Positions 9,427-21,214 of a stretch of 64,000 bases of DNA are shown piece by piece. Numbering within the stretch: the first letter of the stretch is position 1; each line of letters begins with the position of its first letter. The translations under genes were made by a program, and so were the position numbers. Where the stretch lies: positions 1 through 64,000 of the forward strand of contig CACGGJ010000001.1 in assembly GCA_902572515.1 (NCBI GenBank). The letters run 5' to 3'. Source of the DNA: an uncultured Pelagibacteraceae bacterium. GTDB lineage: Bacteria > Pseudomonadota > Alphaproteobacteria > Pelagibacterales > Pelagibacteraceae. Under the pieces are notes generated by a model, which was given only the letters and a program-made list of their open reading frames with translations, had not been told where the DNA came from and did no database searches.

Positions 9427-10631
9427 TGAAAATTCGTCCAGTTATTTTATGTGGAGGTGCTGGAACTCGACTTTGGACAAATTCTAAAAATCATCAAGCA
9501 AAACAGTTTATTGATTTTGGTAATTGGACTTTACTTGGAAAAACACTTGAGAGAACAAAAGCATTAATTTACGACTCTCCAATTATTAGCACAAATAAGA
9601 AATACTTAAGCAAAGTAAAACAGCATTTAAGAAAAAACAAAATAAGCAAATATAAAATTGTTGTAGAACCAGCTAAAAGAAACACTGCACCAGCTATATT
9701 AAGCACTGCTTTAATTAAAGATATTCCAGATAATCAGCCCTTAATGTTTTTTACAGCAGATCATTTGATTGAAAAAATGAGTATTTTTAATAAGGCGATA
9801 AATAAAAATAAATTAAACCTTAATGAAGAAAATATATTTGTTTTTGGAATTAAACCTAAATCTCCAACGAGTGATTATGGTTATTTTTTAACAAAAAAAA
9901 TCAAAGGTAATATCAATAAAGTAACAAGATTTATTGAAAAACCTAAAGAAGCTAAAGCAAAACAAATTATAAAGAATAAAGGTTATTGGAATTCAGGAAT
10001 GTTTTATCTTCGAAAAGACTCCATTATTAATAACTTTAAAAAATATCAGCCTAAAACTTATAAAAATTGTGTAAATGCAGTTAATAAATCAAAATATAAG
10101 GCTAATACATATTTTCTAAACAAAGCTTCATTTATAAAAGCGACTGCCAAATCATTTGATTATGCAATTCTTGAAAAAACTAAGCAAATTAATGCTATCA
10201 AATTAGATATTCCTTGGTCAGATCTTGGTAGTTGGAAAGAAATTCTGAAGATGTACGACAAAAATAAAAACAAATATATTAAGAAAAAAAATGTGTATTA
10301 CCGTCCATGGGGCAGATACACCAATTTATTTGAAGGAAAAGAGTTTTTAATTAAAGAGTTGTATGTAAAACCAAAAGGTATTTTGAGTTTACAAAAACAC
10401 CATCATCGAGCTGAACATTGGTTAGTGACTCAAGGCAATGCTAAAATAACTCTTAATAAAGATATTATAATTAAAAAACCAGGTGAACATATATTCATTC
10501 CATTAGAAGCAATTCACAGAGTTCAAAATCCAGGAAAAAAACCTGTTAAAATTGTTGAAGCTCAAGTTGGCTCAATTTTGAAGGAAAGTGATATTGTAAG
10601 ATATCAAGATGTATATGGTAGAGTAAAGTAA
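9426..10631 (+). CDS. manC: Bifunctional mannose-1-phosphate guanylyltransferase / mannose-6-phosphate isomerase
   Basis: The N-terminal nucleotidyltransferase begins with the GDP-mannose pyrophosphorylase signature ILCGGAGTRLW (residues 7-17). It continues with AKRNTAPAIL, TADHLI and FIEKPKEAKAKQI. The C-terminal roughly 110 residues are a type II phosphomannose isomerase cupin, with YRPWGRY and the metal site KHHHRAEHWLV. Together they would turn mannose-6-phosphate, after phosphomannomutase, into GDP-mannose for surface polysaccharide. At 401 residues it is shorter than the roughly 470 usual for ManC/AlgA, mainly in the linker. TAATG overlaps join it to ilvD and to the kinase gene. Confidence 0.9.
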   Translation: MKIRPVILCGGAGTRLWTNSKNHQAKQFIDFGNWTLLGKTLERTKALIYDSPIISTNKKYLSKVKQHLRKNKISKYKIVVEPAKRNTAPAILSTALIKDIPDNQPLMFFTADHLIEKMSIFNKAINKNKLNLNEENIFVFGIKPKSPTSDYGYFLTKKIKGNINKVTRFIEKPKEAKAKQIIKNKGYWNSGMFYLRKDSIINNFKKYQPKTYKNCVNAVNKSKYKANTYFLNKASFIKATAKSFDYAILEKTKQINAIKLDIPWSDLGSWKEILKMYDKNKNKYIKKKNVYYRPWGRYTNLFEGKEFLIKELYVKPKGILSLQKHHHRAEHWLVTQGNAKITLNKDIIIKKPGEHIFIPLEAIHRVQNPGKKPVKIVEAQVGSILKESDIVRYQDVYGRVK

Positions 10632-11788
10632 TGGAGTTATTAACTATAATTTTATTAGTAATAATTGTTCTTCTTACTTATCTTTTATTAAAAAAAGAAA
10701 AAGTATTAGGTATTAAAACTGAAACTAAAGATAATAATGATCAAATAAAAATTGTAGAAAATAAAGACTATAGAAAAAATATTTATGATTTATTAAATTA
10801 TATTCCTGAGGGAATAATAATTTTAGATAAAGGTAAGAAAATTCTTTTTAGCAACAACTCTGCTAATAAATTATTTCAGATAAAATTAGATGAGAATATA
10901 AGTGGATTTCTTAGAAACCCTGATCTTTTAAGTTCAATTGATAAATCATTTGATGGTAACAATATTTCAGATCTTGAAATTGAAATTAGAAATCAAGCAG
11001 TTCAAAGATTAAATATAACAATTTACCTTGATCAGAATAATCTATTTTTTGATGAAATATGTTGTGTCTTATTTATAAGGGATTTAACTGAATTCCATAA
11101 ATTCCAACAATTAAAATCTGATTTTGTGGCTAACGTATCACATGAGCTAAGAACACCTTTGCAATCAATTAAAATGGGACTTGAAACATTTGAAAATAAT
11201 TCAGATTTAAAAAAGAATTCTGAGGTAAATAATTTACTTCCAGTAATGACTTCTCAATCTGAGAGAATGGAAAATTTAATCAGAGATTTATTATCATTAT
11301 CTAAAATTGAATTACAGGAACATATTCGACCAACACATGAAATAGATCTTATAGAATTGATTGATTATGTTATTAAAACTTATGAAAAAATAATTAGTAA
11401 AAATAATATTAGTATTAAATTTAATAAAACTGATAATTTTAAGATAATTGGTGATAGAGATAAATTAATAGAAATTTTTACTAATCTTATCGATAATTCA
11501 ATCAAATACAGTGATAAAAATAAAGAAATTACAATCACAGCTAAAAAAGATGGTGAGTTTAATACTGTTTCAGTAGCAGATCAGGGAATAGGTATTCCAA
11601 AAGAGTCTATACATAGAATCACTGAAAGATTTTTTACTGTTGATCCAAGCAAAAGCCGAAGTGTAGGTGGTACAGGTCTTGGTTTAGCCATTGTAAAACA
11701 TTTAGTCTCACAACATAGAGCAGAGATGGATATTAATAGTGTTGAAAATGAAGGAACCACAATAGATATCAAATTTAATCCTTTGTAA
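10631..11788 (+). CDS. phoR: PhoR-type sensor histidine kinase
   Basis: This 385-residue kinase has one N-terminal membrane helix (about residues 3-21), a PAS-like domain (about 47-150, starting around YDLLNYIPEGIIIL), a HisKA domain with the phospho-acceptor motif SHELRTP, and an HATPase domain with DQGIGIP and GGTGLGLAIVKHL. A membrane-anchored kinase with a cytosolic PAS and no periplasmic domain matches PhoR. It is directly upstream of pstS, and phoB is at the end of the pst operon. It should phosphorylate PhoB when the Pst/PhoU complex signals phosphate shortage. It is coupled to manC, upstream of the Pho box, so its basal supply probably does not depend on PhoB. Confidence 0.88.
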   Translation: MELLTIILLVIIVLLTYLLLKKEKVLGIKTETKDNNDQIKIVENKDYRKNIYDLLNYIPEGIIILDKGKKILFSNNSANKLFQIKLDENISGFLRNPDLLSSIDKSFDGNNISDLEIEIRNQAVQRLNITIYLDQNNLFFDEICCVLFIRDLTEFHKFQQLKSDFVANVSHELRTPLQSIKMGLETFENNSDLKKNSEVNNLLPVMTSQSERMENLIRDLLSLSKIELQEHIRPTHEIDLIELIDYVIKTYEKIISKNNISIKFNKTDNFKIIGDRDKLIEIFTNLIDNSIKYSDKNKEITITAKKDGEFNTVSVADQGIGIPKESIHRITERFFTVDPSKSRSVGGTGLGLAIVKHLVSQHRAEMDINSVENEGTTIDIKFNPL

Positions 11789-11808
11789 TTCAACTAAAAA
11801 GTTAGTCG

Positions 11809-11842
11809 TTGTAACAAAAGTTTAACCTTCCTTTAATAAAAT
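11809..11842 (+). promoter_or_regulatory. Pho box and -10 element of pstS
   Basis: Direct repeat TTGTAAC-AAAA-GTTTAAC (11809-11826) with an 11-bp period is followed after exactly 10 bases by TAAAAT (11837-11842). This fits PhoB binding in place of a -35. The predicted start near 11849 would leave a leader of about 45 nt containing the AAGGAG site of pstS. Confidence 0.75.
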
Positions 11843-11894
11843 ATTTAAGAATCAATTTTATTAAGATCGAATTATGAATCTAAAAAGGAGAATT

Positions 11895-12923
11895 ATGAAT
11901 AAAATAATAAGCGTAATATTTGGATTTCTTTTAGTACTAAGTTTTACAAAAAATAGTTACTCAAGAGACCAAATTAAAATTGTAGGGTCATCAACCGTTT
12001 ACCCTTATGCGACAGTGGTTGCTGAAAAATTCGGTAAAAGTGGAAAATTCAAAACTCCAGTTATTGAAAGTACAGGTACTGGTGGTGGAATGAAATTATT
12101 CTGCGCTGGAGTTGGTGTAAATCATCCAGATGTAACAAATGCTTCAAGAGCAATTAAGCCAAAAGAAAAAGCATTATGTGAAAAAAATGGTGTGTCTGAA
12201 ATTATTGAAATTGTAGTAGGTAATGATGGAATTTCATTTGCACATGCAGTGAGTGCTCCAGATGCAGATTTTACAAAAGAGCAATTATGGAGAGCTTTAG
12301 CTGCTAAAGTAGATGTTGACGGTAAACTTGTTGAAAACCCATACAAAAAATGGAGTGATATAGATGCAAGTCTTCCAAACAAAAAAATTGAAATTTTAAT
12401 AGCACCCCCAACATCAGGAACTAGAGATGCGTGGAATTCTTTAGTAATGGGTAAAGGATGCACTAAAACTGCAAAATCACTTTATGATGCTGCAGGTAAA
12501 AAAGCAAAAAAAGAATGTGCTAAAATGAGAGAAGATGGTTATGCAGTTGAAGCTGGTGAAAATGACACTTTAATTGTTCAAAAACTAACTTCAAACCCAG
12601 ATGCTTATGGTTTCTTTGGTTATAGTTATCTGGTATCTAATAAAGATAAGGTAAAAGCTGCCTCAATCGAAGGTGTGCAACCATCTTTAGAAGGTATTCA
12701 AGATTACTCTTACCCAATTGCTAGACCATTATTCTTTTACGTTAAAAAAGCTCACATTGGTGTAGTTCCAGGTATTGAGGAATATTTAAAAGAATTTACT
12801 TCTAAAAAATCTATGGGTAACAGAGGTTATTTATCGAAAATTGGATTAGTTCCTTTAGCGACTGATAAGTACAAGGTTACTAGAACTGCTGCTTTGGATT
12901 TAAATACAATTAGTATTAAATAA
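11895..12923 (+). CDS. pstS: Phosphate ABC transporter, phosphate-binding protein PstS
   Basis: This periplasmic protein binds phosphate for PstCAB. The mature part opens QIKIVGSSTVYPYATVVAE with the phosphate-binding loop IVGSSTV and ends as expected for the family. An N-terminal signal peptide (about 23 residues, ending NSYS-R) is clear when the start is taken at 11895, which has AAGGAG at 11885-11890. An in-frame ATG at 11874 would add seven residues and lacks a ribosome site. It is preceded by a Pho box and followed by its own terminator, so it can be transcribed separately from pstC. Confidence 0.95.
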   Translation: MNKIISVIFGFLLVLSFTKNSYSRDQIKIVGSSTVYPYATVVAEKFGKSGKFKTPVIESTGTGGGMKLFCAGVGVNHPDVTNASRAIKPKEKALCEKNGVSEIIEIVVGNDGISFAHAVSAPDADFTKEQLWRALAAKVDVDGKLVENPYKKWSDIDASLPNKKIEILIAPPTSGTRDAWNSLVMGKGCTKTAKSLYDAAGKKAKKECAKMREDGYAVEAGENDTLIVQKLTSNPDAYGFFGYSYLVSNKDKVKAASIEGVQPSLEGIQDYSYPIARPLFFYVKKAHIGVVPGIEEYLKEFTSKKSMGNRGYLSKIGLVPLATDKYKVTRTAALDLNTISIK

Positions 12924-12940
12924 ATTTAGACTTATCCCCA

Positions 12941-12973
12941 AAAAAAGGCCAGTATTTACTGGCCTTTTTTTTT
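12941..12973 (+). terminator. Intrinsic terminator after pstS
   Basis: A 13-bp stem (12941-12953 with 12958-12970, core GGCCAGT/ACTGGCC) with loop ATTT is followed by a T run. It separates pstS from pstC, which has its own Pho box immediately downstream, so the abundant binding protein and the permease genes are transcribed independently. Confidence 0.92.
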
Positions 12974-12993
12974 ATTTCAATCAAGGCTTTAAT

Positions 12994-13027
12994 TTGTAAC
13001 AAAATTGTAACATTTGAAAGATATCAA
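12994..13027 (+). promoter_or_regulatory. Pho box and -10 element of pstC
   Basis: The two heptamers are identical: TTGTAAC-AAAA-TTGTAAC (12994-13011). Ten bases later comes TATCAA (13022-13027). The pstC ATG follows only 9 bases after this -10, so the transcript would be leaderless or carry 2-4 bases. No Shine-Dalgarno is present. Confidence 0.8.
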
Positions 13028-13036
13028 TCTGAGCGA

Positions 13037-14440
13037 ATGAATTTCGTATTAATCTTTTTAATAACAATATTTTCATTATCATTATTTTTCTACGGTAGAT
13101 CAAAAACTAAAACTATTTCAATTGAGAAAAATATAAAATTAAATGCTCTCCCAAAATTTTATGGGTATTATTTGGTTCTATGGTGTTCGATACCTTCATT
13201 GGTATTTCTTTTAATTTGGACATTATTTGAACCGGTAATTATTAAATCAATTATTATTGAAACTGCTGCTAATCAAGGAGCTATTTTTAATGATAAAAAT
13301 GAAGCTAACTTAATTTATGAAAAAATTAAAGCTATATATGCAGGAACTTATTTTGGTGATATAGATACTATTTTAAAAGAAAGTGCACTTTCCTACGCAA
13401 AATTTATAATTCTTTTTACTAATTCCAAAATAGTATTAATTTTTGGTATAGTAATTGCATCGGTAATTTATTCGTTAAAAAAAATAAAAAATAATAATAA
13501 AGCAAGAGATGATGTCGAAGTTATTTTAAAAGGATTATTATTTGCATCATCATTAATTGCAATTCTTACTACTTTAGGAATAATATTTTCACTTTTATTT
13601 GAAAGTATAAAGTTCTTTTCAGTAATAAATATATTTGACTATTTATTTGGCACTAATTGGAGTCCTCAAAGAGCATTCGTAAGAGATGCATCTGCAATTA
13701 CAGCAGAGGAGTACGAGGAATTAAAAGATGCATTTGGCTTTATTCCATTAATAGCCGGCACTTCTTTTATTGCTTTCATCGCAATGCTTGTTGCTGTTCC
13801 TGTTGGACTTTTTTCTGGAATTTATATGGCTGAATATGCGTCATTAAAAGTTAGAAGAATTTCAAAACCAATTATTGAAATCTTAGCTGGTATACCAACA
13901 GTAGTTTATGGTTTTTTTGCTGCTTTAACTGTTGGACCTTTCTTCAGACAAATTGGGGAAAATTTAGGTTTAACAGTTTCATCTGAGAGTGCTTTAGCTG
14001 CTGGATTAATTATGGGTATAATGATTATTCCATATGTCTCTTCATTATCAGATGATGTAATAAATTCTGTTCCACAATCACTAAGAGATGGATCTTATGC
14101 CGTAGGAGCTACTAAATCAGAAACGATAAAAAAGGTAGTTATACCTGCTGCTTTACCAGGAATTATTGGATCTGTATTGTTAGCAGTCTCGAGAGCTATA
14201 GGAGAAACCATGATAGTAGTGATGGCAGCTGGTCTTGCGGCAAACCTAACAATTAATCCTTTAGAGTCCACAACAACTATAACCACACAAATAGTAATGA
14301 TCTTAGTTGGTGACCAAGAGTTTGATAGTCCAAAAACTCAATCTGCTTTTGCTTTAGGTTTAACATTATTTATCGCCACCCTTGTTCTTAATTATATAGC
14401 TCAAAGGGCAGTTAAAAAATATCGTGAGAAATATGACTAA
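13037..14440 (+). CDS. pstC: Phosphate ABC transporter, permease PstC
   Basis: This 467-residue inner-membrane permease forms the phosphate channel with PstA. The long N-terminal region, with extra membrane segments and a loop (about residues 1-210), is the form common in alphaproteobacteria. The C-terminal transport domain has LIAGTSFIAFIAMLVAVPVG (about 235) and the ATPase-contacting loop with SLRDGSYAVGATKSETIKKVV (about 350-371). The start at 13037 is the first possible codon downstream of the promoter. Its end overlaps pstA by 8 bases if pstA starts at the ATG. Confidence 0.94.
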   Translation: MNFVLIFLITIFSLSLFFYGRSKTKTISIEKNIKLNALPKFYGYYLVLWCSIPSLVFLLIWTLFEPVIIKSIIIETAANQGAIFNDKNEANLIYEKIKAIYAGTYFGDIDTILKESALSYAKFIILFTNSKIVLIFGIVIASVIYSLKKIKNNNKARDDVEVILKGLLFASSLIAILTTLGIIFSLLFESIKFFSVINIFDYLFGTNWSPQRAFVRDASAITAEEYEELKDAFGFIPLIAGTSFIAFIAMLVAVPVGLFSGIYMAEYASLKVRRISKPIIEILAGIPTVVYGFFAALTVGPFFRQIGENLGLTVSSESALAAGLIMGIMIIPYVSSLSDDVINSVPQSLRDGSYAVGATKSETIKKVVIPAALPGIIGSVLLAVSRAIGETMIVVMAAGLAANLTINPLESTTTITTQIVMILVGDQEFDSPKTQSAFALGLTLFIATLVLNYIAQRAVKKYREKYD

Positions 14441-15695
14441 GGAAGAAAGATTAAAAAAAAGACATAGTGCTGAAAAAAGATTTAGATTTTATGGTCTTGC
14501 ATCAATTTTTTTAGCTTTATTGTTTGTATTAATTTTAGTTCATAATATTTTTTCAAAAGGTAGCTCAGCATTTATGAAAACAGCAATAAATGTTGAAGTT
14601 TTCTTTGATCAGGAGTTATTAGAAATTAAAAATGGTGCTTCTGATGATGAAATTTTAGAAGCTGATTTTTTTGATATCACCATAGAAAGTTTGATAAAAG
14701 TGTATCCAGCAAAAAATGTTGAAGAGGAAGATGCTCTTATTGAACTTTTTACAACAGATGCAGAAATTGAAATTAAGAGAGCATTTTTAGAAAATAATAA
14801 TTTAATAGGAAAAAAAATTAATTTAGAAATCACAGCTTCTGATGATATTGATCAATTGCATAAGGGAAATTATCCAAGAGATATACCTGAAGATAGAAGA
14901 AGAATTTCTGACTTCCAATTAGTAATTTACGATAACTTAGTTGAAAATCAAAAAATTATAAAAAATTTTAATAATTATTTTTTCAAAAATGGAGACTCTC
15001 GGGATCCTGAGCTTGCTGGTATAGGTGGTGCTCTAATCGGATCATTCTATAGTATAATTATTTGTTTATTATTAGCATTTCCAGTTGCAGTATTAGCCTC
15101 GATTTACTTAGAAGAGTTTGCACCAAAAAATAAAATTACTGATTTTATAGAAATAAATATAAATAACTTAGCTGCTGTACCTTCAATTGTTTATGGTTTA
15201 TTGGCTCTCCAAATACTTCTAGCTACAATTCAATTACCAAGATCTACACCTTTAGTAGCAGGTATTACTTTGGCGCTTATGACCCTGCCCAGAATAATTA
15301 TTCCTTGTAGAGCTTCTTTGAAGGCAGTACCACCATCAATAAGAGAAGGTGCTTTAGCAGTAGGTGCTTCAAAATTTCAATCTGTTTTTCATCATGTAGT
15401 TCCATTAGCATTACCTGGTACTTTGTCAGGTACTATTATTGGATTAGCACAGGCTTTAGGAGAAACGGCCCCATTAATTTTAATAGGAATGGTAGCTTTT
15501 GTTGTTGATATTCCATCAACGCCAATTGACCCTTCTTCCTCTTTACCTGTACAAGTATATTTATGGTCAGAGTCTGCTGAAAGAGGATTTGTTGAAAAAA
15601 CTTCAGCAACAATAATGATGTTGTTAAGTTTTTTAATTGTAATGAATTTCTTAGCAGTATATTTAAGACAAAAGTTTGAAAAGAGATGGAATTAA
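14433..15695 (+). CDS. pstA: Phosphate ABC transporter, permease PstA
   Basis: This inner-membrane partner of PstC has an N-terminal membrane helix (about residues 17-40), a large periplasmic insertion (about 45-190, DUF3333-like, usual in alphaproteobacterial PstA), and the C-terminal permease domain. That domain carries [16 protein letters not shown] and [22 protein letters not shown]. The ATG at 14433 gives an 8-base overlap with pstC; a GTG at 14424 would add three residues and is less likely. Its stop overlaps the preferred pstB start (TAATG). Confidence 0.93.
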
Positions 15696-16456
15696 TGAAC
15701 GAAATTAAAATAAAATCAAAAAATCTAAATGTTTATTATGGTGAAAAACAAGCGTTGTTTGATGTAAATTTAGATTTAAACGAAAAAGAAGTTACTGCTT
15801 TAATAGGTCCATCAGGATGTGGAAAATCTACCTTTATTAGATGTATAAACAGAATGAACGATGTAATCGATATTTGTAAAGTATCTGGAAACATTGAAAT
15901 AGATGGTGTTGAAATCAATGATAAAAATTTAGATGTAGTATCTTTAAGAGAAAGAGTAGGAATGGTTTTTCAAAAACCAAATCCATTTCCAAAAAGCATA
16001 TATGATAATATTTCTTATGGTCCAAAAATTCATGGAAAAGGCGAAACTAAAAGTGAATTAGATGAAATTGTAGAAAATAGTCTTAAGAAAGCAGCTTTAT
16101 GGGAGGAAGTTAAAGATAGACTAGATGAACCAGGAACTGGTCTTTCTGGTGGTCAACAACAACGTCTTTGTATTGCAAGAGCAATTTCTGTAAATCCTGA
16201 AGTTATATTAATGGACGAACCTTGTTCTGCCTTAGATCCTATTGCTACGGCAAAAATTGAAGAATTAATTGATGAACTAAAAAAAACTTACACTATTGTA
16301 ATTGTGACGCATTCAATGGCACAAGCAGTTAGAGTTTCGCAGAAAACAGGGTTTTTTCATCTTGGTAAACTAATAGAGGTAGGCAAAACAGAGAAAATTT
16401 TTAAAAATCCTGACAATAAAATGACACAAGACTATATTACAGGTAGATTTGGATAA
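15695..16456 (+). CDS. pstB: Phosphate ABC transporter, ATP-binding protein PstB
   Basis: This cytoplasmic ATPase of about 253 residues energises PstCA. It shows Walker [19 protein letters not shown] (the PstB-specific Q-loop), signature LSGGQQQR, Walker [14 protein letters not shown] and switch histidine VTHSMAQA. I place the start at the TAATG overlap with pstA (15695); an in-frame ATG at 15686 would add three residues. Besides transport, the complex with PhoU normally transmits phosphate status to the PhoR kinase. Confidence 0.95.
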
Positions 16457-16459
16457 ATT

Positions 16460-17152
16460 ATGAGCAATGAACACACAGTAAAATCTTATGAAGAAGAATT
16501 AAGGTACTTAATAGACTCTGTCATAAAAATGGGAAGTCTAACTGAGTCACAATTAGTTGATTCAATGGATGCGGTAATTAAAGTTGATAAAGATTCAATT
16601 GATAAAATCATTAAAAGTGATGATGAAATAAATAAATTCAGATCTAAAATTGATACTCAAATAATGACATTGTTGGTAAAGAGAGCGCCAATGGCAATTG
16701 ATTTAAGAGAAACAATTAGCTCATTAAAAATATCTCAAGATTTAGAAAGAATTGGAGATTTATCTAAAAGTAATGCAAAAAAAGTCAAACCCCTTCCATT
16801 AGATTTACCTGAGGAACTTTTAGGTAATTTAAAAAGACTAGGTGATTTAGTTATAAAGCAGTTAAATGATGTACTCGATAGTTATGTGAACAAAAATTAT
16901 GATAAAGCAAAAGAAGTATGGGAAAAAGACGAACAAGTAGATGACCTTACATATATTGCTATGGAAAGTGTAATTGATTTTCTTTCTAAAGATAAAAAGA
17001 ATTTAGACTTTTCAACACATTTGATTTTTGCAACAAAAAATCTTGAAAGAGCAGGTGATCATATAACAAATATTGCTGAGTCAATATGTTTTTTAATTAA
17101 AGGTGAATATTTAAAAGGAAGCAGACCTAAAGGAAAAGTTATTCAACAATAA
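16460..17152 (+). CDS. phoU: Phosphate signalling protein PhoU
   Basis: This 230-residue all-helical cytoplasmic protein has two PhoU repeats: a first around MSNEHTVKSYEEELRYL to RIGDLSKSNAKKV, and a second around LGDLVIKQLND to NLERAGDHITNIAESI. The metal-binding-type motifs DLERIGD and NLERAGDH are both visible. It links PstB to PhoR and keeps the Pho regulon off when phosphate is plentiful. It starts three bases after pstB and stops two bases before phoB. Confidence 0.95.
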   Translation: MSNEHTVKSYEEELRYLIDSVIKMGSLTESQLVDSMDAVIKVDKDSIDKIIKSDDEINKFRSKIDTQIMTLLVKRAPMAIDLRETISSLKISQDLERIGDLSKSNAKKVKPLPLDLPEELLGNLKRLGDLVIKQLNDVLDSYVNKNYDKAKEVWEKDEQVDDLTYIAMESVIDFLSKDKKNLDFSTHLIFATKNLERAGDHITNIAESICFLIKGEYLKGSRPKGKVIQQ

Positions 17153-17153
17153 A

Positions 17154-17834
17154 ATGAATGGCAAAATATTTATTATTGAGGACGAACCTTCAATAATTCA
17201 ATTAGTTCAACATAATTTAGAAAAAAATGGTTTTATAGTTTCATCGTCATTGAATGGTAATGATGGCTTAAAGGAATTAAAAAAATTTCAGCCAGATTTA
17301 CTTTTATTAGATTGGATGTTGCCTGATCTTTCTGGTATTGAAATTTGTAAGAATATTAGAAAAGACAATAGTTTTAAAAATTTACCTGTGATTATGTTAA
17401 CCGCCAAAGGTGAAGAAGAGGATAAAATTAAAGGGTTAGATAGTGGGGTAGACGATTATTTAACTAAACCTTTCAGTTTCAATGAACTAATGGCGAGAAT
17501 TAAAGCTGTTTTAAGAAGATCTAATCCAAATACTGTATCTGATAATTTAAAGTTTGATGACTTAATGTTAGATAGAATTGAAAAAAGAGTTTTTAGAGAC
17601 GATCAAGAAATTAAACTTGGGCCAACTGAGTTTAGGTTATTAGAGTTTTTTTTAACAAATCCTAAAAGAGTTTATTCTCGAGATCAAATACTAGAGAGTG
17701 TTTGGCCAAATAATGTAAATGTTGAGAGCAGAACTATAGATGTTCACATTAGAAGATTGAGACAATCAGTTAACCTAAAAAATAAGAAAGAATTAATTAG
17801 AACAGTTAGATCTTCTGGTTACTCACTTATTTAA
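17154..17834 (+). CDS. phoB: Phosphate regulon response regulator PhoB
   Basis: This 226-residue OmpR-family regulator has a receiver domain (1-120) with acidic pocket IEDEP, phospho-acceptor aspartate in LLLLDWMLPDLSG, threonine in MLTAKG and lysine in LTKPF. The winged-helix domain (about 130-226) contains GPTEFRLLEFFLTNP and DVHIRRLR, as in PhoB. It is expected to bind the direct-repeat boxes before pstS and pstC and the similar box before the arsenate operon. Its last 12 bases overlap the convergent aquaporin gene. Confidence 0.94.
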   Translation: MNGKIFIIEDEPSIIQLVQHNLEKNGFIVSSSLNGNDGLKELKKFQPDLLLLDWMLPDLSGIEICKNIRKDNSFKNLPVIMLTAKGEEEDKIKGLDSGVDDYLTKPFSFNELMARIKAVLRRSNPNTVSDNLKFDDLMLDRIEKRVFRDDQEIKLGPTEFRLLEFFLTNPKRVYSRDQILESVWPNNVNVESRTIDVHIRRLRQSVNLKNKKELIRTVRSSGYSLI

Positions 17835-18479
17835 GAAAATCTTTTTTACCAAATATATAGCAATCAACATACCAATCAATTCAGCAGTTATATAAAAAGG
17901 AGTGTTTAAATAACTTATACCAGTAAAAGACTCTGTAAAAGTTCTAGCAATAGCAACGGCAGGATTTGCAAAAGATGTTGATGAAGTAAACCAATAACCA
18001 GCTGTAATATATAATCCAACAGATGCAGCTACGGTAATTTTACCTGACTTCATGGATCCAAAAATAATGATTATTAGTCCTAATGTTGCAACAATTTCTG
18101 ATACAAAAATATAGATTCCATCTCTTGATTTTGTCGATAATTCAAAAATCTGATGTTCAAAAAAGAAATTAGCTAAAGCCACACCTAATAAACATCCAAG
18201 GATCTGAGCTGAAATATAAAAGGGTAGAAGACGTTTTTTTAGTTTTCCTGTAATTGTCATAGCAATACTAACAAATGGATTAAAATGAGCTCCAGAAACA
18301 TCTGCAAAAACAGTTATTAGCACAAACAATCCAGCTCCAGTTGCTATAGTATTTGCAATTAGCATTACAGCTGTATCATCGGTCAGATTTTCTGCCATTA
18401 AACCTGATCCAACTATGATCATTACCAGAAAGCAACTTCCAATAAATTCTGAGAGAAAATATCTATTTTTATTTTTCAT
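17823..18479 (-). CDS. MIP-family channel (aquaglyceroporin), probable arsenite exit channel AqpS-like
   Basis: This 218-residue six-helix channel has a second half-helix motif ANPAVAIART with canonical NPA (172-174) and selectivity arginine R179. The first motif is GAHFNPFVSI, NPF (67-69) instead of NPA. The gene overlaps arsC by 11 bases, the same pairing as the Sinorhizobium AqpS/ArsC system, in which arsenite made by ArsC leaves down its gradient through the channel. No arsB or acr3 pump is present here. Water or glycerol transport is the alternative; the operon context favours arsenite. It converges with phoB, overlapping 12 bases. Confidence 0.85.
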   Translation of the reverse strand: MKNKNRYFLSEFIGSCFLVMIIVGSGLMAENLTDDTAVMLIANTIATGAGLFVLITVFADVSGAHFNPFVSIAMTITGKLKKRLLPFYISAQILGCLLGVALANFFFEHQIFELSTKSRDGIYIFVSEIVATLGLIIIIFGSMKSGKITVAASVGLYITAGYWFTSSTSFANPAVAIARTFTESFTGISYLNTPFYITAELIGMLIAIYLVKKIFLNK

Positions 18480-18900
18480 CTAGCCAATCTTTAATTTTAT
18501 TGCTTATAATATTGAAAGTGTTTCTAATGATTATTTGCTTTTCTTCGTCATTAGCATTTTGAAGTTTGGTTACTGGATCGTCTATATCCCAGTGTATAAT
18601 TTGGTTTTTATCAGGCCAAATAGGACATACCTCATTATTTGCGTTATTGCATACCGTTATTACGTGATCCATCTTTATTTCATTATTTATAAATTCTTCA
18701 AAGTTTTTAGAACTATAATTAGTTAGATCATAATTTTTATTTTTCTCTAAAAAACTTTTAATATCAATATTAATTGTTCCAGATGGATTACTACCAGCAC
18801 TAAAAGCTTTAAATTTATTTGAGTATTCATTATTGATAATACTCTCAGCTATAATGCTTCTTGCTGAATTTCCTGTGCATACAAATAAAATATTTTTCAT
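18469..18900 (-). CDS. arsC: Arsenate reductase, thioredoxin-dependent (low-molecular-weight phosphatase fold)
   Basis: This 143-residue cytoplasmic enzyme has P-loop VCTGNSARS at its N-terminus (catalytic Cys8, Arg14). Two further cysteines occur in ITVCNNANNEVCPIWPDK (Cys84 and Cys92). Three cysteines in this arrangement mark the thioredoxin-coupled ArsC class, which reduces arsenate to arsenite, rather than a tyrosine phosphatase. The start overlaps the stop of the upstream membrane-protein gene (TAATG), and the end overlaps the aquaporin gene. The operon is led by a Pho box, which fits a need to detoxify arsenate taken up through phosphate transporters. Confidence 0.9.
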   Translation of the reverse strand: MKNILFVCTGNSARSIIAESIINNEYSNKFKAFSAGSNPSGTINIDIKSFLEKNKNYDLTNYSSKNFEEFINNEIKMDHVITVCNNANNEVCPIWPDKNQIIHWDIDDPVTKLQNANDEEKQIIIRNTFNIISNKIKDWLDEK

Positions 18901-19124
18901 TAAAAAATAATTTTATAAATACCGATTACAAATAATGGAATTTGTAATCCAAAGTTAGTTAAAATGGCCTTATCCTTTAATAAGAAACCTGAAATTGTCC
19001 ATCCGACAACACCAAGCCCATGAAAATAAATATTCAGCGGGTAAATATTAAGATTTGTAAGTAAAATACCAGTTAACACTAAAAGTGTACTGATCCACTT
19101 TAGATATTTTTTTAAAAATGACAT
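18900..19124 (-). CDS. Small membrane protein of unknown function, first gene of the arsenate operon
   Basis: This 74-residue protein has a basic N-terminus and about three hydrophobic segments: ISTLLVLTGILLTNL (11-25), YFHGLGVVGWTISGF (33-47) and FGLQIPLFVIGIY (58-70). It resembles the short alphaproteobacterial DUF6552-type proteins in size and pattern, but I am not sure of this. The start is forced: an in-frame TGA stands directly before the ATG and no other methionine follows. It is coupled to arsC by TAATG. The ATG lies 6 bases after a TATAAA -10, so the mRNA is probably leaderless. Function unknown. Confidence 0.75.
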   Translation of the reverse strand: MSFLKKYLKWISTLLVLTGILLTNLNIYPLNIYFHGLGVVGWTISGFLLKDKAILTNFGLQIPLFVIGIYKIIF

Positions 19125-19130
19125 TCAAAA

Positions 19131-19164
19131 TTTATATGAATGTTTTGTTAAAGATTTATTACAA
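19131..19164 (-). promoter_or_regulatory. Pho box and -10 element of the arsenate operon
   Basis: Read on the minus strand: TTGTAAT-AAAT-CTTTAAC (19164-19147), 10 bases, then TATAAA (19136-19131), 6 bases, then ATG. The repeat sequence and the 10-base spacing match the pstS and pstC promoters. The predicted +1 falls on or next to the start codon. Confidence 0.65.
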
Positions 19165-20194: not shown

Positions 20195-21214
20195 TTAACA
20201 ACCTTTGAAAGATGCAGACATATTTCTAATTAAATTGAAATATAAGTCTTTTCCTGGGTCTAATGTTGCACCTAGAGGATCAACAACACCAGTTTTAATC
20301 TTCATATCTTTTGCAACTGCATTGATAATATCAGGATTAAACTGAGGCTCTGAGAATACACAAGCTACTTTATCATGCTCAATTATTTCTCTAATTTCAG
20401 CTAGTTGTTCTGCACCTGGCATAACATCAGTATTGACTGTAAATGCACCCAAAATATTTACATTATATCTTTCTTCAAAATATTGGTAAGCATCGTGAAA
20501 TACTATAGAAGCAGTACTCTTACTTAATTCAGCTTTAACATCTTTATTAAGTTTATCGATTTCTTTAAGTGCTTTTTTTAAGTTACTTTTATATTTAGAT
20601 GCATTTTTAGCATCGTTTTCTATTAAATGCTCAACCATTTCATTTAAGATTACTTTAGCATTCATTGGATCCAACCATATGTGTGGATCAAATTCACCGT
20701 GTGCATGACCTTCGTGTCCATCGTGATCATCATGGTCATCGTGACCATCCTTTTTACCGTGATCATCATGGTCATGATCGTCGTGGTCATCTTCTTTTTT
20801 ACCGTGATCATCATGGTCGTCGTGACCGTGATCATCATGATCATCAAAAATATTTCTTTCTCTAAACTTTAATACATTTAATCCTTTAATTTCCATCAAT
20901 TCGATTTTCTCAGCTTTTTTAGCAATTGAACTCAATGGTTTTTCTAAAAAACTTTCTAGATCTTCACCAACCCAAAATATTAAGTCAGCATTTTGAAGCA
21001 TTTTTGCGTGAGATGGTTTCAATGCAAATCCATGTGGAGATGCGTATCCGTCTACAATTAAATCAGGTTTAGCAACACCATCCATTAAATAACTGGCTAA
21101 TGAATGTATTGGTTTAATTGATGTAACCACTTTTATTTCAGCATTTGCTGGTGTAAAGAATGTTAAGATTGATAAAATTGAAAGTAAAAAGGGTATTTTT
21201 TTGATATTTTTCAT
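20195..21214 (-). CDS. znuA: Zinc ABC transporter, zinc-binding protein ZnuA
   Basis: This 339-residue periplasmic protein has a signal peptide ending about TPANA (residue 25). Predicted zinc ligands are His61 (ASPHGF), His178 (DPHIW), His240 (VFHDAY) and an acidic residue in FSEPQF. Between the first two lies a long His/Asp-rich loop (about 124-172) that is the hallmark of ZnuA and is thought to gather zinc. The gene is divergent from znuC, with two Zur palindromes between. A TAAAAT -10 (21227-21222) ends 7 bases before the ATG, so the mRNA may be leaderless. Confidence 0.95.
   Translation of the reverse strand: MKNIKKIPFLLSILSILTFFTPANAEIKVVTSIKPIHSLASYLMDGVAKPDLIVDGYASPHGFALKPSHAKMLQNADLIFWVGEDLESFLEKPLSSIAKKAEKIELMEIKGLNVLKFRERNIFDDHDDHGHDDHDDHGKKEDDHDDHDHDDHGKKDGHDDHDDHDGHEGHAHGEFDPHIWLDPMNAKVILNEMVEHLIENDAKNASKYKSNLKKALKEIDKLNKDVKAELSKSTASIVFHDAYQYFEERYNVNILGAFTVNTDVMPGAEQLAEIREIIEHDKVACVFSEPQFNPDIINAVAKDMKIKTGVVDPLGATLDPGKDLYFNLIRNMSASFKGC
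20711..20846 (-). repeat. Imperfect tandem repeats encoding the His/Asp-rich loop of ZnuA
   Basis: The segment is built of degenerate copies of a short GATCAT/GGTCAT-type unit; the stretch CCGTGATCATCATGGTC recurs at about 20757 and 20802, with related copies around. It encodes runs of HDDH and DHDDHG separated by GKK and accounts for several spurious overlapping frames. Such repeats can change length by slippage, altering the metal-binding loop without breaking frame. Confidence 0.8.

Follow-up and report, generated by a model that had tools for sequence, protein, structure and literature searches.

We analyzed a 64,000-nucleotide stretch of DNA (the window; positions 1 to 64,000 of the forward strand of contig CACGGJ010000001.1, assembly GCA_902572515.1) from an uncultured Pelagibacteraceae (SAR11) bacterium, in which an arsenic operon coding for a small DUF6552 protein, an arsenate reductase (ArsC) and an aquaporin (AqpS) lies beside the genes for the phosphate transporter Pst and its regulators PhoR, PhoU and PhoB. 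We found that this operon is preceded by the same kind of direct repeat (Pho box) as pstS and pstC and that the box is conserved before arsC in relatives. Sequence comparison suggested that DUF6552-arsC-aqpS is very likely a third transcription unit of the Pho regulon, under direct Pho control. The genome carrying the window comprises 1,167,165 bases in 41 contigs and is 89% complete; among named records, those whose ArsC is most similar belong to Pelagibacteraceae, and on the strength of this likeness we refer to its genus as Pelagibacter.

Three promoters with one architecture

PhoB binds direct repeats of the 7+4 type, which replace the -35 element. The original prediction described three 7-4-7 repeat sites in the window, before pstS, pstC and the arsenic operon, and both their sequences and their positions proved exact. 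Also as claimed, exactly 10 bases separate the second repeat from the start of a hexamer at all three sites (TAAAAT, TATCAA and TATAAA, the first two being weak as -10 hexamers). The promoter elements are as follows.

11809-11815, 11820-11826 and 11831-11837, plus strand: Pho box of pstS, three 7-bp repeats in 11-bp phase (TTGTAAC-AAAA-GTTTAAC at 11809-11826, third repeat CTTTAAT)
11837-11842, plus strand: candidate -10 hexamer of pstS, TAAAAT, 10 bp past repeat 2
12994-13011, plus strand: Pho box of pstC, two perfect repeats, TTGTAAC-AAAA-TTGTAAC
13022-13027, plus strand: candidate -10 hexamer of pstC, TATCAA, weak
19164-19147, minus strand: Pho box of the DUF6552-arsC-aqpS operon, TTGTAAT-AAAT-CTTTAAC
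19136-19131, minus strand: putative -10 hexamer TATAAA, 6 bp ahead of the DUF6552 start codon

None of the three promoters was in the sigma-70 consensus list for the window, and no consensus -35 was found at the arsenic operon, as is expected for an activator-dependent promoter. In the relatives whose promoters were read, including those of the sister family, pstS is preceded by three or four repeats. With the -10 only 6 bases before the start codon, the DUF6552-arsC-aqpS mRNA of the window's clade is probably leaderless, unlike that of many relatives, in which a purine-rich leader precedes the DUF6552 start.

The strict pattern TTGTAAYN5TKTAAC had three zero-mismatch matches in the whole genome, which were the sites of pstS, pstC and DUF6552-arsC-aqpS from which the pattern had been drawn. 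A narrower and likewise site-derived form, TTGTAAYN5TTTAAC, had 2 genome matches versus 0 for the reversed control. Because these patterns came from the sites themselves, a cleaner test was a half-site matrix trained on 15 pst promoters (13 of pstS and 2 of pstC, the window's own included), which supplied 45 half-sites, with no arsenic site included. In the window, the four highest scores of this matrix fell on the arsenic operon, on pstC and on two pairs at pstS that overlap. At a score of 16.6 or more the window held three sites, the pst ones having been in training, versus a mean of 0.07 in 60 first-order Markov copies.

Conservation of the box before the arsenic operon

The pst-only matrix was used to scan 37 arsC loci of the genus for the highest-scoring site in the 130 bases ahead of DUF6552. 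The arsenic-operon site ranked 1-11 among 5,980-40,824 positions in 35 of the 37 loci, the failing ones being L072 (rank 116) and L073 (rank 133); some of these loci are the same genomes reached two ways, and the scan shares genomes with the following census. ArsC was present in 200 and PhoB in 196 of 399 genomes of the genus. The upstream region was examined in the 154 ArsC-positive genomes with a listed place or locus; one of them (G246) was dropped as its region had only 156 bases, which left 153, and a second ArsC match in G191, G194 and G391 was left aside. At a matrix score of at least 7, the box was found in 135 of the 153 genomes, its best pair starting 260-274 bases before arsC. When the genomes were divided by PhoB content, it was present in 107 of 108 PhoB-positive and 28 of 45 PhoB-negative ones. 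This threshold was chosen after the scores had been seen; thresholds of 8.4 and 10 gave the same picture. In every one of the 135 box-bearing rows, a hexamer beginning with TA started 10 bp beyond the second repeat (100 via the best-scoring pair and 35 via the pair 11 bp upstream). Across 61 distinct promoter segments, the two repeats held 1.19 and 1.46 bits per column and the spacer 1.29, versus 0.33 for the upstream flank, which varies between genome groups.

The original prediction had staked its case on conservation of the box upstream of arsC in related genomes, which the census bore out, and on a response of arsC mRNA to phosphate limitation. With regard to the latter, a 2.3-fold rise of arsC in phosphate-starved strain HTCC7211, with no rise with DMA, has been published (PMC6426599); its authors called the gene “slightly upregulated” and credited the starvation arrays to Carini 2014 and 2015. 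Taken together, the conserved box and the published rise support the proposal that phosphate starvation switches on the arsenic operon along with Pst.

Association of the box with PhoB and arsC

The stretch RTIDVHIRRLR of the window's PhoB, which we take to be the recognition helix, aligns with RTVDVHIRRLR of E. coli PhoB (1gxp) with one I/V change. The window is thus like known Pho regulons in the DNA-binding stretch of its regulator, and its promoters are like theirs in repeat length, spacing, AT-rich spacer, lack of a consensus -35 and pst neighbourhood. It differs in the half-site, which is TTGTAAC/TTTTAAY rather than the E. coli consensus CTGTCAT, and in having an arsenic operon as a member. 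No match to PF01022 (ArsR-type HTH_5) was found in the 89%-complete genome, whereas 14 of 14 control genomes had one; by this search the genome differs from those with a classical ArsR-controlled ars operon.

Among the 45 PhoB-negative genomes of the census, 17 lacked the box despite having arsC. The raw association between PhoB and the box was strong (Fisher 7e-9 at threshold 7, in a count still including G246), and PstC was also missing in all 26 PhoB-negative census genomes tested. In 18 genomes of named loci, PhoB was present in 12; it was absent from both genomes without the box and from 4 of the 16 with it. With the arsC-less genomes described below included, the counts indicate that the box tends to go with the pair of PhoB and arsC.

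Several observations weigh against direct Pho control of the operon. The looser pattern NTKTAAYN5TKTAAY had 34 genome matches versus 40 in the control, and with up to two mismatches allowed the numbers were 398 and 456, so there was no genome-wide enrichment and only the strong, intergenic sites stand out. Threshold 7 is lenient, since 5% of shuffled regions exceeded 7.7 and 1% exceeded 10.8. The box is kept in 28 of the 45 PhoB-negative genomes, among which G102, G138, G378 and G160 are 85-97% complete (G160 97%); incomplete assemblies may explain part of these genomes. Two genomes, G012 and G003, retain the box without arsC, and the sole PhoB-positive exception in the census, G108, has lost DUF6552 and carries a degenerate site before arsC. 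Tree-corrected pair tests, on trees of the DUF6552 stretch, were in the expected direction and not significant: in the first, a mean of 1.4 and 1.9 pairs changed the same way versus 0.2 and 0.1 the opposite way, in the second 2.0-2.5 versus 0-0.2, and the remaining pairs of 5-15 showed no difference. As the genomes are related and independent contrasts few and not significant, we do not claim loss of the box with loss of PhoB as proof. ArsC and PhoB tend to occur together in the 399 genomes (both 143, ArsC only 57, PhoB only 53, neither 146) and in the 57 most complete ones (38, 4, 7 and 8, respectively), which favours the link, but this association is inflated by the closeness of the two genes on the chromosome. 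The published induction is small. Besides, an ArsR could have been missed, given a genome 89% complete and PF01022 as the sole model used.

With regard to a wider Pho regulon, 30 of the 34 loose matches were inspected, and 7 were outside open reading frames (ORFs) of at least 80 aa. A gene start was close downstream in just four: two at pstS, one at pstC and one at the arsenic operon. DUF6552 is below the 80-residue limit of this screen, and its start was known independently of it. No further promoters could be claimed through the loose motif, and a genome-wide regulon drawn from it was rejected.

We also considered that the box might belong to DUF6552, as a Pho-regulated small membrane protein, with arsC-aqpS inserted behind it and read along. 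The box does stand before DUF6552, and in G008, G009, G012, G015 and G025 a DUF6552 gene without arsC lies right beside phoB; the two genomes with a box and no arsC point the same way. However, of 37 genomes of the genus, 11 had DUF6552 and no arsC, and at threshold 7 the box was missing in 9 of these 11. Four of these 9 are PhoB-positive, and G028, also counted among the 9, carries a partial site scoring 6.6. Where PhoB and DUF6552 were present without arsC, the box was found in 1 of 5 genomes, compared with 107 of 108 in the census (Fisher p 3.9e-6, relatedness ignored). Furthermore, L096, a remoter Pelagibacteraceae record whose ArsC is 45% identical and which has no DUF6552 match, carries a box directly before arsC: ATTTAAT-AAAT-TTGTAAC starts 39 bases before the arsC start codon and is followed, 10 bases on, by the hexamer TATTTA. 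In the sister family, arsC-aqpS lies directly behind phoB on the same strand in 13 of 13 loci, and in the genomes looked at DUF6552 is away from arsC (in G037, 23 kb off on the same contig and without a strong box). The mostly boxless DUF6552-only genomes and L096 make a box of DUF6552's own improbable.

Binding of the repeats by a different OmpR-family regulator, for example one that senses arsenic or envelope stress, is very unlikely. A further regulator is encoded in the genome (G000:C2:113340, 35% identity over nearly all of PhoB), and the half-site departs from that of E. coli. On the other hand, one matrix fits pstS and pstC as well, the PhoB recognition stretch is nearly that of E. coli, and by raw count the box is far oftener missing in genomes without PhoB. 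An equally slight chance attaches to mere linkage, in which pst and arsC share one variable region in low-phosphate ecotypes and the repeats are functionless AT-rich leftovers: in many genomes ArsC and PhoB are indeed neighbours or separated by a few kb, and their joint presence partly reflects linkage and joint loss in incomplete assemblies, but the box columns are conserved and the upstream flank is not, and the box is present whether phoB adjoins aqpS or is about 5-7 kb away.

The locus and its genes

The plus strand of the window (10631-17834) carries phoR, pstS, pstC, pstA, pstB, phoU and phoB in this order, and the minus strand (19124-17823) the DUF6552 protein of 74 residues, an LMWP-fold arsenate reductase and an aquaporin. 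In the window, phoR begins where the upstream ORF ends.

10631-11788, plus strand: phoR, sensor kinase of the phosphate two-component system (HisKA, HATPase_c; best NCBIfam model phoR_proteo, 292.8 bits, under its cut-off of 334.2)
11874-12923, plus strand: pstS, periplasmic phosphate-binding protein (PF12849)
12940-12971, plus strand: terminator-like hairpin in the pstS-pstC gap (14-pair stem and T tail; 3 such sites versus 2.7 in shuffles)
13037-14440, plus strand: pstC (PF00528, PF12501)
14424-15695, plus strand: pstA (PF11812, PF00528)
15686-16456, plus strand: pstB (PF00005)
16460-17152, plus strand: phoU (PF01895)
17154-17834, plus strand: phoB, response regulator expected to bind the boxes (TIGR02154 PhoB, 314.1 bits, over its cut-off of 296.2)
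17823-18479, minus strand: aqpS, aquaporin and proposed arsenite exit (PF00230, 95.3 bits; its 3' end overlaps the end of phoB)
18469-18900, minus strand: arsC, LMWP-fold arsenate reductase with Cys8, Cys84 and Cys92 (PF01451 (LMWPc), 58.3 bits, cut-off 23.2)
18900-19124, minus strand: gene of the DUF6552 small protein, first in the operon and a membrane protein by appearance (PF20189, 42.4 bits, cut-off 27)

The hairpin after pstS, if it acts as a terminator, would explain why pstC has a Pho promoter of its own. The Cys-x5-Arg loop and two further redox cysteines of ArsC (Cys8, Arg14, Cys84 and Cys92) were invariant in 14 aligned sequences, and the three cysteines align with those of the arsenate reductase 1jl3. 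Judged from this alignment, the window's ArsC carries the cysteine triad of thioredoxin-type (LMWP) arsenate reductases; it scored 72 bits with arsC_pI258_fam, its best NCBIfam match, which is below the curated cut-off of 174.3. Beyond the operon, at 20195-21214, we recognized by eye a ZnuA-like protein in which HDDHDDHGKK repeats make up a long stretch rich in His and Asp, as well as adjoining ABC transporter genes and a Fur-like regulator.

Other arrangements in relatives and beyond SAR11

Of 61 relatives, 40 have a DUF6552 gene, and a sizeable share of these 40 lack arsC. In two contigs (G019:C4 and G035:C4; L357 and L359) DUF6552 and aqpS stand together, and the genomes have no arsC match. 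Two kinds of pst-phoB operon occur in the genus, as seen from the window (17154-17834) and from L054, L058 and L062. The identity of PhoB to that of the window was either 81-100% or about 56-65% among the about 150 of 196 matches listed, and each of the 196 PhoB-positive genomes had a single PhoB match at an E-value of 1e-50. In L054, aqpS and the pst operon of the other type are separated by a gene for a PhoX-like alkaline phosphatase (11601-13603, recognized by eye), which has the box-like site TTGTAATAATTTTTTAAT 68 bases upstream and is followed by ppx-like and ppk-like genes. In L074, a strong box, TTTTAACAAATCTGTAAC (18312-18329), lies 21 bases upstream of phoR.

Among 52 arsC loci from outside SAR11, an aquaporin gene was located downstream of the LMWP arsC, on the same strand and within about 1 kb, in 16. 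Mesorhizobium-type arsC-aquaporin pairs have the same gene order and differ in the lack of a pst-phoU-phoB cluster and of DUF6552. These 52 loci, some of which are short, had no PhoU match (E-value 1e-3), no strong match to PstB, PstC or PstA and no DUF6552; PstS was present in one and a weaker PhoB-like match in one. A Pho link general to LMWP arsC was rejected, as no pst-phoU-phoB cluster lay beside arsC in any of these loci.

Relation to known systems

The arsenic genes of the window are the same two, in the same order, as the SAR11 LMWPc_ArsC-AqpS module, which is commoner where marine phosphate is low (PMC6426599). In the surveyed SAR11 genomes just arsC and the aquaporin were reported, and the accessible text of that article names neither DUF6552 nor a position behind phoB (PMC6426599). 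In addition, no description of a Pho box for SAR11 or for arsC was found in the accessible portions of the open-licence literature. Predicted Pho boxes have been reported for plcP gene clusters of marine bacteria (PMC4796936), and a structure of SAR11 PstS is available in an article whose accessible text is without mention of arsenic (PMC12421899). The nearest precedent is Halomonas sp. HAL1, in which PhoB binds a Pho box before the arsenic genes aioBA in one-hybrid and gel shift assays (PMC4563254); however, these genes code for an arsenite oxidase, which makes arsenate, whereas the window codes for an arsenate reductase and an aquaporin. Arsenic and phosphate regulation are also linked in another alphaproteobacterium, Agrobacterium tumefaciens 5A, but in the reverse direction: there the arsenite-sensing ArsR1 controls pstS1 and phoB1 (PMC7965956), while the window has no ArsR-type match. 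Induction of arsC is thus already in print, and what the present sequence analysis adds is its probable mechanism, in which a conserved Pho box would act directly in the place of an ArsR.

Proposed mechanism and meaning

Under direct Pho control, ample phosphate would let Pst and PhoU restrain PhoR, and scarce phosphate would lead PhoR to phosphorylate PhoB. PhoB dimers on the 7+4+7 repeats would then replace the -35 and recruit RNA polymerase to the -10, 10 bp on, and would act jointly on pstS, pstC and the arsenic operon. With more Pst, more arsenate would enter the cell; ArsC would reduce it to arsenite, with exit via AqpS. We infer PhoB binding and the transcription start and, from the protein families, arsenate entry via Pst and arsenite exit via AqpS. 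Since the box is shared with phosphate-uptake genes, a phosphate-starved cell probably turns on arsenic defence along with phosphate import before arsenic is sensed, and since no ArsR-type repressor was found, the switch would read phosphate rather than arsenic. Such a cell may in this way be readied for arsenate taken up via the phosphate route.

SAR11 bacteria are among the most abundant marine cell types, and the arsenate-to-phosphate ratio rises where phosphate is scarce. We lean, without great confidence, towards the broader view that SAR11 arsenate resistance has dropped arsenic sensing and runs feed-forward on phosphate status. At least three routes would have led to this coupling: a box may stand ahead of DUF6552-arsC-aqpS or immediately ahead of arsC, or arsC-aqpS may be placed after phoB. 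Selection would maintain the box only as long as a genome has PhoB as well as arsC. A direct Pho box, if true, would explain the published rise of arsC, for which the accessible text of PMC6426599 gives no mechanism and makes no mention of PhoB, pst or a Pho box. In that case, SAR11 arsC transcripts in ocean surveys would be a signal of phosphate stress and not of arsenic. The role that an arsenic-sensing repressor has in other ars operons would here fall to a phosphate switch, and the locus would be a clean case of anticipatory control, in which the absence of a nutrient predicts its toxic twin.

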